Shown: positions 37,054 to 43,709 of the stretch, one piece after another
How positions within the stretch are numbered: position 1 is the first letter of the stretch
Layout of the letters: each line of letters starts with the position of its first letter
From: Aureimonas sp. AU20
GTDB taxonomy: Bacteria; Pseudomonadota; Alphaproteobacteria; Rhizobiales; Rhizobiaceae
Direction of reading: 5' to 3'
Length of the DNA: 64,000 nucleotides
NCBI RefSeq assembly: GCF_001442755.1
Contig: NZ_CP006368.1
Span: forward strand, 372,001 to 436,000
Made by a program: the position numbers and the translations under genes
The notes under the pieces: model-generated
Told to the model about the DNA's origin: nothing
Databases searched by the model: none
The model's input: the letters and a program-made list of their open reading frames with translations, nothing else

Positions 37054-38589
37054 TCAAGCAGAGAGAAGCTGGCGCCTTTCGACCGGTGCTTCGACACGGG
37101 TGGTCGTACGGATCAGATCCGCCTTGGCCAGCGGGCGACCCAAGAGATAGCCCTGGAAGGTCGCGCAGCCAGCGGCGCGCGACAGCTCGAACTCCTCCTC
37201 CGTTTCCACGCCTTCCGCGACCACGCTGAGGCGCAGGGCGCGCGCCACTTCCATGACGGCCGAAACGAAGATGCGCGAAACCGGATCGTCCGGCAGGCGG
37301 GAGACATAGGAACGGTCGATCTTCACCATGTCCACGGGCAGGCTCTGCAGATAGTTGAAGGTGCAGTGGCCGGTTCCGAAATCGTCGAGCGCGATCCTGA
37401 CGCCCATGGCGCGCAAAGCCTGGATGCGGCCGAGCACTTCGGGGATCGAAAGGAGCGAGACGTTCTCGGTGATCTCCAGAACGAGCTGGTTGGGCGCGGC
37501 GCCGGTTTCCTTCAGCACGTCCCTCACCACGCCCAGAAGATCGTTGCGCCGCATCTGAGCGGGCGAGATGTTGACGGTGACGAACCGGCCCGGCAGGTCT
37601 TCGAGATCGAGGCAGGCGCGGCGCAGCACCCATTCGCCCAGCATGTCGATCAGCGTGCTTTCCTCGGCAACGGGAATGAATTCGGCGGGCGGGATCATGC
37701 CACGAACCGGGTGCTTCCAGCGCACCAGCGCCTCGACGCCCAGGATCGTCTGATCGGCGTCGGTGATCGGCTGGTAATGAAGGTCCAGCTCGTCCAGCAT
37801 GATCGCGGCCCGCAGATCGCGTTCGATCATCCGGCGGTTGCGCTTCACGCTCAGCATGTCGGGGTCGAAGACCGTGGCCCGCCCGCGCCCGCGCCGCTTG
37901 CTTTCGTAGAGGGCAAGATCGGCGAGGAGGATCATCTCCTCGAAGAAGGACGTGTGCTTGGGCGCGGTGACGAGGCCGATCGAGGCGCTGAGATTGAGCT
38001 GTCGGGTGGCCGCGAAGGTCGGCGCCTTCAGAGCGACCAGAAACTCGTCCATCAGCGCGAGGCCGCGCACCTCGTCGCAACGAGGCAGGAGCACGGCGAA
38101 CTCGTCCCCGCCCAGGCGCCCGATCGAGGCGCCGGGTAAGGTGCGCCGCGCGACCTCAACCAGATGCGTCAGCGCGAAGTCGCCGACATTGTGGCCGAAG
38201 CTGTCGTTCAGCGACTTGAAGTGATCGACGTCGAGAAGCGCCAGCGAGCAGGGTTCGCCCTGTGCGCTGGGGCGCGTGGCGGTCTTCAGCGTTTCCATGA
38301 AGATGCGCCGCGTCATCGCGCCCGTCAGCGGATCGGCCTGGAGCAGGGCCACCTGGCGCGCCGCCTCGACTTCCGCTGCCACCACTTCCCGCCCGAGGCG
38401 ATGGCGCATCCACAGGAGAAGCAGGACCGACAACGCGACGAGACAGAAGCTGGCGAAGAACACGGCGATCGGCTCGAAATCCGGAAACAGGAACCAGGTC
38501 ACCATGCCAGCGAGCGACAGGGCCTGAAGCACCAGCAACAAACGGTACTGCCTGATCTTGATACGGGGTGTCGCCTGAAACGGGTCCAT
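37054..38589 (-). CDS. GGDEF-EAL cyclic-di-GMP protein
   Basis: A 511-residue inner-membrane protein: two N-terminal helices (about residues 17-36 and 40-60), a GGDEF domain with intact GRLGGDEFAVLL (GGDEF at 160-164) and an EAL domain starting GVEALVRWKHP (EAL at 286-288). The EAL side keeps NISPAQ, EITEN, DDFGTG, KIDRSYV, AEGVE and QGYLLGRP, so phosphodiesterase activity is plausible. No RxxD inhibitory site precedes GGDEF. It may tune the polysaccharide loci of the window through c-di-GMP; that is inference. Confidence 0.94.
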   Translation of the reverse strand: MDPFQATPRIKIRQYRLLLVLQALSLAGMVTWFLFPDFEPIAVFFASFCLVALSVLLLLWMRHRLGREVVAAEVEAARQVALLQADPLTGAMTRRIFMETLKTATRPSAQGEPCSLALLDVDHFKSLNDSFGHNVGDFALTHLVEVARRTLPGASIGRLGGDEFAVLLPRCDEVRGLALMDEFLVALKAPTFAATRQLNLSASIGLVTAPKHTSFFEEMILLADLALYESKRRGRGRATVFDPDMLSVKRNRRMIERDLRAAIMLDELDLHYQPITDADQTILGVEALVRWKHPVRGMIPPAEFIPVAEESTLIDMLGEWVLRRACLDLEDLPGRFVTVNISPAQMRRNDLLGVVRDVLKETGAAPNQLVLEITENVSLLSIPEVLGRIQALRAMGVRIALDDFGTGHCTFNYLQSLPVDMVKIDRSYVSRLPDDPVSRIFVSAVMEVARALRLSVVAEGVETEEEFELSRAAGCATFQGYLLGRPLAKADLIRTTTRVEAPVERRQLLSA

Positions 38590-38781: not shown

Positions 38782-39837
38782 TCAGGGCCTGAAGAGATGG
38801 GCGGCGCCCCGAACCTCGACGCTCACGAACTCGCCCGCGCGCGGGGCCAGCGCGCCGGACACGGGAACCCGCAAGGAGACCCCCTCGCCCGCCGCGCCCG
38901 ACAGGTCGAGCCCGACCTGACAGACCGGCCCGCCGAACTCGACATCGGTCACCCGCGCCCGCATCCCGTCGGCCCCCTCGCCAGCCTGCCCCAGCAGAAG
39001 CTGCTCGGGGCGCAGGAGGAGCCTCGCGCTGCCGCCGGCGGTGCCGCTCTCGTTCGTTCGCACGCGCCCCAGCGCGCAGTGCGCCCAGCCATCGGCTTCC
39101 AGAACGGCGTCGAGCAGGATCGCGGGGCCTAGAAAGGCGGCGGTGGCGGCATCATTCGGCTGGAGATAGAGCGCGCGGGGCTCGCCGACCTGCTGCAGGC
39201 GGCCGTCGCGCAGGACGGCGAGCTGATGGGCGAAGGTCAGCGCTTCGCCCTGGTCGTGCGTCACCAGAATGGCGGCGATGCCTTGCGCCTCCAAGACCTC
39301 AGCTACCTTCCGGCGCAGCGAGTCGCGAAGCCCGGCGTCGAGCGCCGAGAAGGGCTCGTCGAGCAGCATGAGCTTTGGCCGCCGGGCCAGCGCGCGGGCC
39401 AGCGCCACACGCTGCTGCTGCCCGCCAGAGAGCTCGTGCGGCCTGCGATGGCGCAGCGACCGGTCGAGTTCCACCAGATCCATCAGCGCCAGGATGCGCT
39501 CGGCCCGGTCCTTCAAGCGCTTGTCCATGCCGAAGCCGATATTGGCGGCAAGGTCGAGATGGGGAAACAAGGCGCCGTCCTGCGAGACGAGGCCGATCGG
39601 GCGCTGGTGCGGATGAAGCGCGCGGCCGGGCTCGGCGAGGACCAGATCGCCCAGTGTGATGCGGCCGGCATCGGGCGCCTCGAAACCCGCGATCAGGCGA
39701 AGGAGCGTCGACTTGCCCGAGCCGGACGGGCCGACCACGGCCGTGCGGCTGGCGGGCGCGACGGCGAGATCGATGCCGTCCACGGCCCGCACGGAGCCGA
39801 ACAAGCGGGACACCCCATCAAGGCGCAGAAGGGTCAT
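38782..39837 (-). CDS. fbpC: Ferric iron ABC transporter ATP-binding protein
   Basis: A 351-residue ATPase. Walker [10 protein letters not shown] is at residues 36-44, followed by the Q-loop, signature [15 protein letters not shown] and Walker [13 protein letters not shown]; the C-terminal 120 residues are a TOBE-like regulatory domain. Together with the two-domain permease and the FbpA-like binding protein this defines an FbpABC-type importer. The start is ATG 39837, overlapping the permease stop by 4 bp. Third gene of the minus-strand iron operon. Confidence 0.9.
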
Positions 39838-41435
39838 CGCGCTCTTGCCTTGTCGGCCCGCACGGCCACGAGCACCGTCAAAGGCAGGGAGATCAGAACC
39901 ATGAGAAGCGCATAGGGCGCGGCGGCGACATAGTCGATCTCGCTGGTCAGCGTCCAAAAGCGCGTCGCCAGCGTTTCCGTGCCGTTGGGCGCCAAAAGCA
40001 GCGTTCCGGTGAGCTCGGTCGCGATGCCGAGCCCCGCTAGCGCCATGCTGGCGGCAAGGCCGGGCGCGGCAAGCCGCAGCGTCACTTCTAAGATTGCCCG
40101 GCCGGGAGTTCGGCCGAGCGCCTGGGCTGCCTCCTCAAGCTGCACCGGCGCCTGCGCGAGGCTCGGGCGCACGGCGACCAGCGCACGCGGCAGGAACATC
40201 AAGGCATAGGCGACAAGCAGCGTGAAGGCGGTCTGGTAGAGCGGCAGCGCGACGCGCACGGTGACGGCCACCAGCGTCAGCGCGATCACCACGCCGGGGA
40301 TCGAGGCGACAGAGTAATGCGCCGCCTCCATGGCGCGTACCAGCCGGCCCGGCGCGCGCAGCGAGAGCCAGGCCACGGGAAGCGCGGCGAGCGTGGCGAG
40401 ACAGCCGCCGGCCAGCGCCAGCAGGAGCGTGGTGCCGAAGGCCGCGCCGATCTCGCCCATCGGCCAGGCACTCCATCCCCCATAGGACAGCCAACGCGCC
40501 AGGGTGAGGATGGGCACGCCGAGCGACAGGGCGGCGACCAGCGCCAGCCCCAGGACGCAAAGCGGCATGAAGGCGCCGAGCCGCGCACTTTTGGGCGCCC
40601 TCGCCGCGCCCGAGCCGACCTTGGCGTATCGTTCGCTGCCGCGAAACGCCCGCTCGCACAGGACGAGCCCCAGGCAGAGCAGCATGAGGACGCCGGCCAG
40701 CATGTTGGCCGCCGGCCCGTCGAACGAGGTCTGGAACTGGTCGACGATCGCGGTGGTGAATGTGTCGAACCGGATCATGACGTAGAGGCCGTATTCGGCG
40801 AGAAGATGCAGGGCGACGAGAAGGCTGCCGCCGCAGATCGCCAGCCGCAATTGCGGCAGCACGACACGCCAGAGGATGCGCGCCGGCGACAGGCCGCTTG
40901 CCGCCGCCGCTTCCTCCAGCGCCGGGTCGAGCCGGCGAAGCTGCGCGGCGACGGGCAGGTAGAGAAGGGGGAAATAGGCCAGCACCGAGAGGAGCGTCGC
41001 CGCCGGCAGACCCTCAAGGCCCGGGAACAGCGAAATCCAGCTATAGCTCTGCACGAAGGCGGGCACGGCCAGCGGCGCGGCGGCTAGCCAGGCCCAGAAG
41101 CGGGCGCCCGGCAGATCGGTGCGTTCCGTCGCCCAGGCCATGGCGAGGGCGAGGGCGATCGAGGGCGGCAGCGCGCAGACGACGAGGCCGAGCGTGTTGA
41201 GCAGGAGCTGGCCGACGCGCGGGCGAAACACCAGCGTGGCGATCGTCTCCCATCCGGTCTGTACGCTGACCCAGAGAATAAAGCCGAGCGGCAGCAGCGC
41301 CAGCGCCGACACGAGGCCGGCGGCGGCGAGCAGCGCGGGGCGTCCGCCCGTGCGATAGCGCGCGAGGCCGCTCCACCCGTCGGCGCGGGAGCGCAGCTCG
41401 GGCGCCGCGCTTGCGGACGGAGCGGACAGGGTCAT
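39834..41435 (-). CDS. fbpB: Ferric iron ABC transporter permease (fused two-domain)
   Basis: A 533-residue permease with about twelve predicted helices, built as two homologous halves. Each half carries an EAA-type loop: [20 protein letters not shown] and, near the C-terminus, [20 protein letters not shown]. This duplication is characteristic of FbpB/ThiP-type permeases. It overlaps the ATPase gene by 4 bp and lies 16 bp after the binding-protein gene. Confidence 0.93.
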
Positions 41436-41451
41436 GCGAGGCGCGCCCGGC

Positions 41452-42462
41452 TCAGAGGAGCCCGGCCTCCGTCATGAGCTTCACCACGGCGCGGTTGTCG
41501 AGCTCGTCCGGCGTCACCTTCGGCGCGTCGAGATCGGCCAGCGGCACGAGGGCGGGGTTGGATGCGGCGCCCTTGCCCACGGCATATTCGAAGGAATTGC
41601 CGGTCTTCAGGATTTCCTGCCCCTTGGGACCGGCAACCCATTTCACGAAGGCCTCGGCATCCGCCTTGTGCTGGCTGGAGGCCAGAACGCCCGCGCCGGA
41701 GATGCTGACGAAGGCGCCGGGGTCCTTGTGACGGAAATAGTGCAGGCCGATATTGCCGGAATTCTCGCCGGTCTTCGCCTGATCGCCGAAATAGTAATAG
41801 TGATAGATGACGGCGCCCTCAGTCTCGCCGGCGTTCACCGCCTTCATGGCGACGCTGTTGCCTTTGTAGAACTTGGCGTTCTCATGCATCGCTTTCAGCC
41901 AATCCAGCGTCGCGGCTTCGCCCTTCAGCTGCAGCATGGCGGCGACGATGGCCTGAAAATCTGCGCCCGTCGGCGAGGCGGCCCAGCGACCCTTCCATTC
42001 CGGCTTGGCGAGATCGACGATAGAGGCCGGCAGCGCGCCGTCCTTCAGCTTGGTCTTGTCGTAGGCGAAAACGGTCGAGCGCGCGGCGACGCCGATCCAG
42101 TGCCCGCTGGCCGGCTGGAACTCGGCAGGGACCTCGGCGCGCGTCTCGGCACCGAGCGGCGCGAAGAGACCGGCCTTGTCGACCAGCGCCATGGCGGGCG
42201 AATTCTCGGTGACGAAGACGTCCGCCGGGGAGGCCGCGCCTTCCTGCACGATCTGGTTGCCCAGTTCCGTGTCGCTTCCCTTGCGCAGGGTGACGGGGAT
42301 GCCGGTGTCCTTGGTGAAGCCTTCGGCCCAGGCCTTGGTCAGGCTTTCGTGCTGGGCGTTGTAGACGGTGATTCCCTCACCCGCCGCGAAGGCGGCAGTG
42401 GAGCCGGCGAGAAGGCCGATCAAAGCGGAAAGGAAGCCGAGCCGGCCATTGGTCCGAGACAT
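41452..42462 (-). CDS. fbpA: Periplasmic ferric-iron-binding protein
   Basis: A 336-residue binding protein with a signal peptide (hydrophobic residues 9-22, cleavage near AAFAAG at 23-28). The class III/FbpA markers are YNAQHES near the mature N-terminus and YHYYYFGD at residues 220-227, whose adjacent tyrosines bind Fe3+. It is the first gene of the operon and is preceded by a TGA-N9-TCA palindrome, consistent with iron control by RirA. An sRNA-like element lies upstream on the same strand. Confidence 0.93.
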
Positions 42463-42585: not shown

Positions 42586-42620
42586 AAAAAAACGCCCGCT
42601 GGGGGAGGACCAGCGGGCGT
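42586..42620 (-). terminator. Rho-independent terminator of the sRNA
   Basis: ACGCCCGCTGG (42592-42602) and CCAGCGGGCGT (42610-42620) form a perfect 11-bp stem. On the minus strand the stem is followed by a run of seven T (A at 42586-42592 on the plus strand, the last also in the stem). It points away from any annotated upstream minus-strand gene and stops before fbpA, so it must end a short independent transcript. Confidence 0.9.
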
Positions 42621-42700
42621 CATGGGTGGCCTTCGGTGGGAGGAACCGTCGGCACGTCGCCTCAGCCGATGGGAGGAAAGGCTGCAGCGAAACTCACAAG
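42586..42700 (-). ncRNA. Probable anti-Shine-Dalgarno sRNA, three CCUCCC-loop hairpins (cuckoo/alpha-r14-like)
   Basis: Read on the minus strand, three hairpins follow in a row. Hairpin 1 (42684-42663) has stem CAGCC/GGCUG and loop UUUCCUCCCAUC. Hairpin 2 (42653-42629) has GCC/GGC and CGG/CCG stems around a 2x2 internal loop, with loop UUCCUCCCA. Hairpin 3 (42620-42592) has an 11-bp stem and loop UCCUCCC, followed by seven U residues. Every loop displays CCUCCC, able to pair with GGAGG ribosome sites. This matches the rhizobial cuckoo/alpha-r14 (NfeR1-type) sRNA design as I remember it. The 5' end is approximate; CTAAAT near 42705 is a possible -10 element. Confidence 0.78.
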
Positions 42701-42962
42701 TCCGAATTTAGGTTCCTCGCCCGCGAAGCGCCAGAGTGCGCTTTGCATGGCAGCCCTGCTTTTGTTGCAGAGCACAAAAGAGGGATGGCTCCGTGTCCAC
42801 CGAGAGTGGCCATGGCGCAATGTTCCAGGCCGAGCCTGTATCCTTCTGGACACGAAATTGGATCGAAACTGGCCTCGTCGAGGATTTGCCGGCTAAGGGA
42901 TTGCGCTGCGATATGACATTTGCATGAATGCGGCCGACGCTTTTCCAGTGGGAGTTGTGGAG

Positions 42963-43709
42963 ATGACGGTGGTGACGGTGGGGTCGTTTCGCAGCGGGGG
43001 CACGACGACCCTGGCCCTAACTCTGGCCTCCGCCGTCGAACGTTTGGGAACCGAGGTCCTTCTTGTGGACGCCGCGCGCCGGCCCGACCTGTCGCACTGG
43101 TCGGAGCGGCCGGGCTGCCCGAAGGGGATCGGCGTCGTTCGCGTCACCAAGCCGTCGCAGCTGGAAGACGTGGTTCATCTCGGACGTCGCTCACGCCGCT
43201 TCGTGGTGATCGACGCGGGCGTGTGCGACGGCATGCTGGCCGAGGCTGCGGCCGTGTCCACGATGGCCATCATTCCCGTGCGCTTTTCGCCCCTGTCGGC
43301 CAGCGCGGCGGCCGAAACCGAGGCGATGCTGCGCGAAGCCCCCACGGAGCGCCAGCCCCGCCGACGCGCCCTGGTCGCAACCGGCATCACGTCGATTCCC
43401 AGTCGCATCGCCCGGCGGGTCGAGCGGGATCTTGCCAGCTGCCGAAGCTTCCGCCTGCCGGCGGGTCTCGGCCTGCGCGCTGCCTTCGAGGCGCCCTTCC
43501 TGGCTGGGGGAACGATCTACAATCTCACCGACGACGACGCGCCGGGTCTTTCCAGCGCGCGCCAGGATGCCGCCGCCGTTTTGTCGGAACTCGAAATGTT
43601 CGGCCTTCGGCGCCCGGAAAAGCGCGACGACGCGCGCAAGCGCACCCTCCCCTCGGAGTGGCTGCGCCCGCAGCACGCAGCGTCGGCCGGGGTCTACCAG
43701 TTCGCCTGA
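42963..43709 (+). CDS. ParA/MinD-like ATPase-fold protein with degenerate P-loop
   Basis: A 248-residue protein with the SIMIBI ParA fold: MTVVTVGSFRSGGTTTLALT at the N-terminus, LVDAARRPDLSHW where ParA has the Walker A' Asp, and RRFVVIDAGVCDG as Walker B. The deviant Walker A KGGxGKT is here FRSGGTTT, lacking both lysines, so ATP hydrolysis is doubtful. The chosen start is ATG 42963 after GGGAG and GTGGAG; an ATG at 42924 is also in frame but has no ribosome site. It is a single gene with no parB or plasmid genes nearby, so replicon partitioning is unlikely. Confidence 0.78.
   Translation: MTVVTVGSFRSGGTTTLALTLASAVERLGTEVLLVDAARRPDLSHWSERPGCPKGIGVVRVTKPSQLEDVVHLGRRSRRFVVIDAGVCDGMLAEAAAVSTMAIIPVRFSPLSASAAAETEAMLREAPTERQPRRRALVATGITSIPSRIARRVERDLASCRSFRLPAGLGLRAAFEAPFLAGGTIYNLTDDDAPGLSSARQDAAAVLSELEMFGLRRPEKRDDARKRTLPSEWLRPQHAASAGVYQFA

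Follow-up and report, generated by a model that had tools for sequence, protein, structure and literature searches.

A stand-alone alpha-r14-type small RNA gene with shortened loop motifs beside an iron-transport operon in Aureimonas sp. AU20

Three hairpins that follow one another within about 100 nt of the same strand, each exposing CCUCCC in its loop, raise the question of whether this stretch of DNA is a small RNA gene in its own right, to which family such a gene would belong and whether it has anything to do with the iron-transport genes next to it. The hairpins lie on the minus strand at about 42700-42586 of the window, the 64,000-nt stretch of the Aureimonas sp. AU20 genome analysed here, between a divergent gene (42924-43709) and a binding-protein gene (41452-42462). 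The genome that holds the window, called G000 below, comprises 5.21 Mb in 9 contigs; the contig with the window (C2) carries a repC gene.

Anatomy, fold and family of the RNA

The RNA gene, of alpha-r14 type by its match to the Rfam ar14 model and by its orthologues (L114, L115/L178), occupies 42586-42700 on the minus strand (about 114 nt), and the 5' end of the RNA probably lies at about 42699-42700. Hairpin 1 (42657-42690), hairpin 2 (42629-42653) and hairpin 3 (42592-42620), all on the minus strand, present CCUCCC at 42676-42671, 42643-42638 and 42608-42603, respectively. The stem of hairpin 3 can be drawn as a perfect 11 bp; a terminator scan counts 12 pairs and reports it as terminator-like, and a run of six U follows at 42591-42586. 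Sequence and fold thus bear out the original prediction, made from the letters alone, of three CCUCCC-loop hairpins in about 100 nt of minus strand, the third being a perfect 11-bp terminator stem with a U-run. Its description of short loops holding only CCUCCC fits loop 3 (UCCUCCC) but not loop 1 (12 nt) or loop 2 (7-9 nt).

Folded from 42700, the RNA reaches -49.8 kcal/mol (z -5.15; 0 of 200 shuffles equally stable), with all three CCUCCC motifs within hairpin loops. A longer piece gives z -5.47, but the sequence 5' of the likely start then mis-pairs with hairpin 2. Upstream on the minus strand no long gene enters the RNA, and a 63-aa GTG frame terminates within hairpin 1. The absence of a same-strand gene upstream, together with the full-length ar14 match described below, supports the predicted independent short RNA with its own terminator. 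The motif count itself is unremarkable: the 64-kb window has seven TCCTCCC, every one of them on the minus strand and three within 75 nt at the RNA gene, and this total is no enrichment over the shuffle mean of 11.5. Chance origin is excluded mainly because of the Rfam match and the conservation, not because of the number of motifs.

At the curated Rfam cut-offs, the 64-kb window returns zero matches. The covariance search that had been proposed as a check was therefore read with an E-value threshold in place of the curated cut-off, and the ar14 model (RF02344) matches 42695-42587 over its full length (model positions 1-123 of 123) with 54.8 bits and E 3e-9, a value that refers to a search of 601 bases. 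The full-length match thus holds, while the score stays 4 bits under the gathering score of 58.8. The orthologue in one related genome (G028) scores 59.4 bits, above the cut-off, and that in another (G027) 54.9 bits. Because the G028 orthologue passes, the window RNA is, on sequence homology, alpha-r14-type, although it is not a formal RF02344 hit. The cut-off evidently misses short-seed copies: in the window's own genome the ar14 model finds 16 matches at E<=1, nine of which reach E<=0.001, and one of the nine passes.

The predicted cuckoo/alpha-r14 (NfeR1) design is supported by this match and by loop cores that are invariant while the stems change. Like NfeR1 of Sinorhizobium meliloti (Smr14C2/SmelC397; length given as 115 nt in PMC8844928), the window copy has three consecutive hairpins with anti-Shine-Dalgarno (aSD) motifs in their loops, the last one a terminator, and about the same length; it is likewise a stand-alone gene that belongs to a set of several copies per genome, and it has a putative LsrB-type box 5' of a proposed CTATAT-like -10. 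The loops differ. NfeR1 is described as carrying the same aSD motif, CCUCCUCCC, in all of them (PMC10746234), whereas no loop of the window copy contains this 9-nt motif and each has the CCUCCC core only. The original prediction took such loops as the possible mark of a new subfamily at this locus, and this idea falls, as does that of a CCUCCC subfamily tied to the iron locus: 31 of the 64 three-hairpin copies found in the genus lack CCUCCUCCC in hairpins 1 and 2, 26 of these copies are linked to a DUF1127 gene, and the G028 orthologue passes the RF02344 cut-off although it too lacks the motif in both hairpins. AbcR1 and AbcR2 (alpha-r15) resemble the window RNA in having aSD seeds, reported to act on ABC-transporter mRNAs, and in the LsrB/VtlR control described for AbcR1, but differ in having two distinct aSD motifs; the Rfam search of the RNA interval reported no ar15 match.

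Conservation and arrangement of copies in the genus

Orthologues of the RNA are found at the same locus in G027 (81% identity over 194 nt, promoter included) and G028 (71%). The three sequences do not differ in their loops, and their stems show compensatory changes. The alignment of related genomes that the original prediction had called for shows invariant aSD cores and covarying stems. In 14 stand-alone copies, 91.4% of the cells of hairpins 1 and 3 are paired and 8 of 20 pairs have changed on both sides (23 cells); 0 of 500 shuffles reach this count, and sliding the partners gives 0-2 pairs. In 61 distinct copies the same hairpins are 88.0% paired, with 14 of 20 pairs changed on both sides (72 cells), 0 of 500 shuffles as high and partner slides of 2-7 pairs. 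The shuffles ignore relatedness, and the partner slides are the better control. Further pair types do not exceed the shuffles, 433 of 500 and 161 of 500 being as high in the 14- and 61-copy sets. Hairpin 2 is excluded from these counts because MAFFT misaligns it, and it is supported by the fold and by pairing judged by eye in G027 and G028. Loops lost while stems are kept, named beforehand as the outcome that would speak against the prediction, are not the pattern seen: in 59 of the 61 distinct relatives, the fold places all three CCUCCC cores within hairpin loops.

All 21 genomes examined in the genus have ar14 matches at E<=0.001, 81 in total and 1 to 10 per genome, with 10 in G028. Three hairpins are present in 64 copies, of which 49 lie behind a DUF1127 gene and 15, including the window copy, stand alone. 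This set consists of 61 copies with three intact motifs plus L160, L191 and L202, which have one degraded motif each and were admitted by hand; L160, L012 and L202 were also assigned by hand to the DUF1127 class, automatic frame finding having missed theirs. DUF1127 calls were confirmed with Pfam PF06568 in two examples and otherwise made by sequence pattern or eye. Of the other 17 hits, 16 are two-hairpin RNAs. The last one, L193, has a third loop that is degraded; neither a DUF1127 frame nor the strict promoter box (see below) was found with it, and its inclusion would raise the stand-alone copies to 16, 14 of them with the box.

The DUF1127-linked sister copies start 0-131 nt after the DUF1127 frame, and directly upstream of the window RNA there is no DUF1127 gene. 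A DUF1127 protein paired with a CcsR-like RNA is published as the CIN1 locus, and in Rhodobacter sphaeroides CcsR1-4 are reported to be cut by RNase E from the ccaF1 transcript, driven by RpoHI/HII (PMC10253847). CIN1 loci (CcaF1-CcsR1-4; DUF1127 with CcsR/cuckoo RNAs) share the loop motif with the window copy, which differs in its missing DUF1127 gene and in having a dyad and a -10 directly before the RNA.

Several individual hits deserve mention. From the E<=1 search of G000, L018, L022 and L023 are plain terminators by eye and were not counted. Nor was L024 (G000:C1:2177689-2177801), a weak two-hairpin element with CCUCCC in one loop, which lies at the 3' end of a binding-protein gene and is possibly a 3'UTR-derived RNA. 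L189 and L190 (G004:C5:7395-7509 and G004:C6:101619-101733) have identical RNA bodies in one genome, one standing alone with the exact VtlR motif and the other behind a DUF1127 gene, which suggests recent copying or gene conversion between the arrangements. In L026/L170 (G007:C1:2238889-2239131), two complete three-hairpin RNAs follow a single DUF1127 gene in tandem.

Proposed promoter elements and a candidate regulator

Upstream of the RNA, a 15-bp dyad, GCAGGGCTGCCATGC, lies on the minus strand at 42745-42759, about -60 to -46 of the probable start, and is proposed as an LsrB/VtlR operator. It is the single match in the 64-kb window, where 0.06 are expected. CTAAAT, the proposed -10 (42706-42711, minus strand), agrees with CTATAT at 5 of 6 positions and follows the dyad by 33 nt. 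The -35 is weak by eye, and an E. coli-type promoter scan upstream of the RNA, which uses the E. coli sigma-70 consensus, found nothing. Three published sites can be compared with this putative operator. The dyad has 12 of the 15 bases of the Brucella VtlR motif CAATGCAGCCATGCA (PMC12595884), which occurs exactly (15/15) upstream of the copy on G004:C5. On the opposite strand it has 6 of the 7 fixed bases of the VtlR/LsrB box GCAT-N3-TG-N3-T, described at -61 to -49 of PabcR1 (PMC7486931, PMC8844928). Overlapping it at 42756-42769 (minus strand), TGCA-N6-GCAG matches the NfeR1 LsrB site TGCA-N6-GCAT, as given in PMC10746234, at 7 of 8 bases and is retained in G027 and G028; the LsrB motif of NfeR1 is placed at -72 to -57/-60, versus about -60 to -46 for the window dyad. 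According to the VtlR/LsrB papers (PMC7486931, PMC8844928, PMC10746234, PMC12595884), VtlR controls both AbcR RNAs and DUF1127 genes, and a shared operator is therefore to be expected.

For the search in other promoters, the pattern GCANNNSWGCYATGC was drawn by eye from 12 of them, 10 belonging to stand-alone copies and two to two-hairpin RNAs. It matches 14 of the 15 stand-alone copies, a partly circular count in that 10 of these promoters defined the pattern, and 20 of the 49 DUF1127-linked three-hairpin copies; in G007 two tandem copies share one box, which enters the count twice. G000 has the pattern at 15 places (16 matches, as one place matches on either strand), versus 2 for the reversed pattern. 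CCTCCC follows within 300 nt at five of these places, and four of the five are recognised aSD RNAs, namely the window copy, L009, L017 and L020; the other 11 of the 15 places are not 5' of a recognised aSD RNA. At the fifth (G000:C1:3121160-3121174), CCTCCC lies 249 nt downstream. Two of the eight three-hairpin copies in G000 have the strict dyad (L009 and the window copy). None of the six DUF1127-linked copies outside the main contig (L011-L016, on contigs C2, C3, C4 and C6) has the strict dyad; in L013 a loose version accompanies a -10 of 4/6.

The spacing to the -10 is a separate matter, as the CTATAT-like hexamer at offset 33 played no part in drawing the pattern. At this offset, 35 of 44 dyads have at least 4/6 matches to CTATAT, and any other offset from 10 to 59 has at most 10. 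By class, the hexamer is present in 13 of 14 stand-alone copies, 19 of 20 DUF1127-linked copies and 3 of 10 two-hairpin RNAs, those in G000 having 1/6 and 2/6 matches. The distance from the dyad to hairpin 1 or the model start is 63-64 nt in 8 stand-alone copies and 107-110 nt in 6, yet the gap of 33 nt between dyad and -10 is the same in both groups, as a longer leader in the second group would lead one to expect. Thirty copies (29 DUF1127-linked and L195) lack the strict box; in 12 of them a looser form, GCA-N9-TGC, is accompanied at offset 33 by a -10 that matches at 4/6 positions or more, a raw count not set against shuffles. As far as our searches of the open-access literature show, a dyad and -10 at fixed spacing across the stand-alone and DUF1127-linked alpha-r14 genes of this genus is new. 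Judged by this comparison of promoters, the RNA seems to be driven by a design conserved with its sister copies and not by the neighbouring iron-transport genes.

The genome also has a candidate for the activator. The neighbourhood of trxB and lsrB is familiar from rhizobia, and in G000 the sole thioredoxin-reductase hit over the cut-off (trxB-type) adjoins a LysR gene for which all 21 genomes have homologues at E<=1e-100. This gene is called LsrB-like here by neighbourhood and family only; the solved structure nearest to its protein, 9hh1, is named just a LysR-family regulator. A related box and two CCTCCC motifs are found downstream of the LysR gene, an arrangement that resembles the position of AbcR1/2 next to lsrB in S. 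meliloti as reported in PMC8844928. Rfam confirmed no AbcR RNA at these motifs, and an AbcR identity of the two-hairpin RNAs is likewise unconfirmed.

Proposed function, a possible silent copy and the iron neighbours

We conclude that the interval contains a genuine gene of an already known type, whose seed motif is shortened and whose proposed promoter is clearly marked. Very probably, this stand-alone gene encodes a trans-acting sRNA of the alpha-r14/NfeR1 type, activated by an LsrB/VtlR-type regulator and using its loops as seeds on Shine-Dalgarno sequences. To the observed anatomy, homology, covariation, stand-alone arrangement, dyad at fixed spacing and presence of an LsrB-like gene, this reading adds transcription, activator binding and translational repression, which we infer. 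RNA polymerase would start at about 42699 from the CTATAT-like -10, a LysR-type activator of the LsrB/VtlR kind would aid initiation from the dyad at -60 to -46, and transcription would end at hairpin 3 to yield an RNA of about 114 nt. Its CCUCCC loops would pair with GGGAGG-like Shine-Dalgarno sequences of many mRNAs and so block ribosome entry, the three acting as interchangeable (redundant) seeds on start regions of mRNAs, those for transporters among them. The mechanism is proposed by analogy to what NfeR1 studies report (PMC10746234, PMC8844928, PMC7143759), and targets such as transporter mRNAs are likewise suggested by NfeR1.

Membership of a multicopy family also allows for a recent and possibly silent copy, the remnant of a DUF1127-RNA unit without its protein gene that would have ceased to act as a regulator. 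Of the 64 copies, 49 are DUF1127-linked; one of the six NfeR1 copies of S. meliloti is reported as detected by northern (PMC7143759); and, by eye, the upstream half of DUF1127-linked promoters is similar to that of the promoter of the window copy (TGC-N2-TGCA-N2-A). Against this, the same-locus orthologues in three species retain the loops, the dyad and the -10 while their stems compensate, which suggests selection on the RNA gene and makes an inactive remnant unlikely.

A broader idea, which we put forward tentatively as one possibility, keeps the active sRNA and joins the two arrangements: one LysR-type activator might drive the aSD RNAs of the genus from one invariable promoter layout, the dyad followed 33 nt on by the -10; the RNA might be transcribed by itself or be released by cleavage downstream of a DUF1127 gene, and the window gene might be a CIN1 unit that shed the protein gene and kept the promoter. 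If so, the RNA dose would no longer depend on the DUF1127 protein or on processing by RNase E, the loss of the strict box would have freed accessory copies for other control, and the shortened CCUCCC seed would shift the targets towards shorter Shine-Dalgarno matches. With Aureimonas added to the genera with alpha-r14 RNAs, stand-alone and DUF1127-linked copies can be compared cleanly under what is apparently one operator. This makes it testable which copies the cell really uses and whether LsrB/VtlR controls aSD RNAs and DUF1127 proteins as a unit.

The RNA adjoins an fbpABC-type operon on the minus strand (38782-42462; fbpA-type binding protein 41452-42462, permease 39834-41435, ATPase 38782-39957), and one could suppose an iron-linked RNA that works with this operon, either under the control of RirA or by acting on the fbpA mRNA. 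A TGA-N9-TCA of the RirA-box type is found on the minus strand at 42538-42524, after the terminator and before fbpA; it lies beyond the end of the RNA and would belong to fbpA, not to the RNA. The operon is not common to the relatives that have the RNA. Homologues of fbpA at E<=1e-100 are found in 2 of the 21 genomes (G000 and G011) and are absent from the other 19, including G027 and G028 with their orthologous RNA at the same locus. The gene order of G027 is SbcD/SbcC-like, MarR, ParA-like, RNA, GGDEF/EAL, and G028 has the same order as judged by frames. The window has the counterparts in this order too, with a divergent neighbour at 42924-43709 (plus strand; P-loop/ParA-like by eye, no Pfam family above cut-off) and a GGDEF/EAL gene at 37054-38589 (minus strand) that in both relatives directly follows the RNA; here the three-gene operon separates the two and interrupts the common order, and it was probably gained in G000 rather than lost in the relatives. 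A three-motif cluster is found in the 1.5 kb upstream of 0 of 80 fbpA relatives, and not upstream of the G011 fbpA. The fbpA mRNA as preferred target was rejected on duplex energies: in a crude test of seven window leaders, the RNA pairs with the fbpA leader at best at -13.9 kcal/mol, inside the range of random 61-mers (median -12.5, best quarter below -14.5), and the best leader is that of the SbcC-like gene (-17.7). Linkage with an iron gene is thus not conserved, the meaningful fbpA/RirA connection of the original prediction is not upheld, and we regard an iron-linked role as very improbable. Intrinsic terminators are common, and yet that the hairpins are the 5' leader or terminator of a neighbouring transcript with no separate RNA is hardly credible, given that no same-strand gene lies upstream, that the full-length ar14 match includes the terminator and that the gene's own promoter elements are conserved along with it.

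Two minor observations concern the neighbours. In G011 (L182, G011:C6, 195-1421 and 1823-2845) the operon is next to a phage-type integrase gene, the fbpA homologue being some 400 bp away from it, and for this reason fbpABC may travel as mobile cargo. A block of about 38 nt at about 42960-42906, where the divergent ParA-like gene starts, is identical in G027 by eye, while its surroundings differ.
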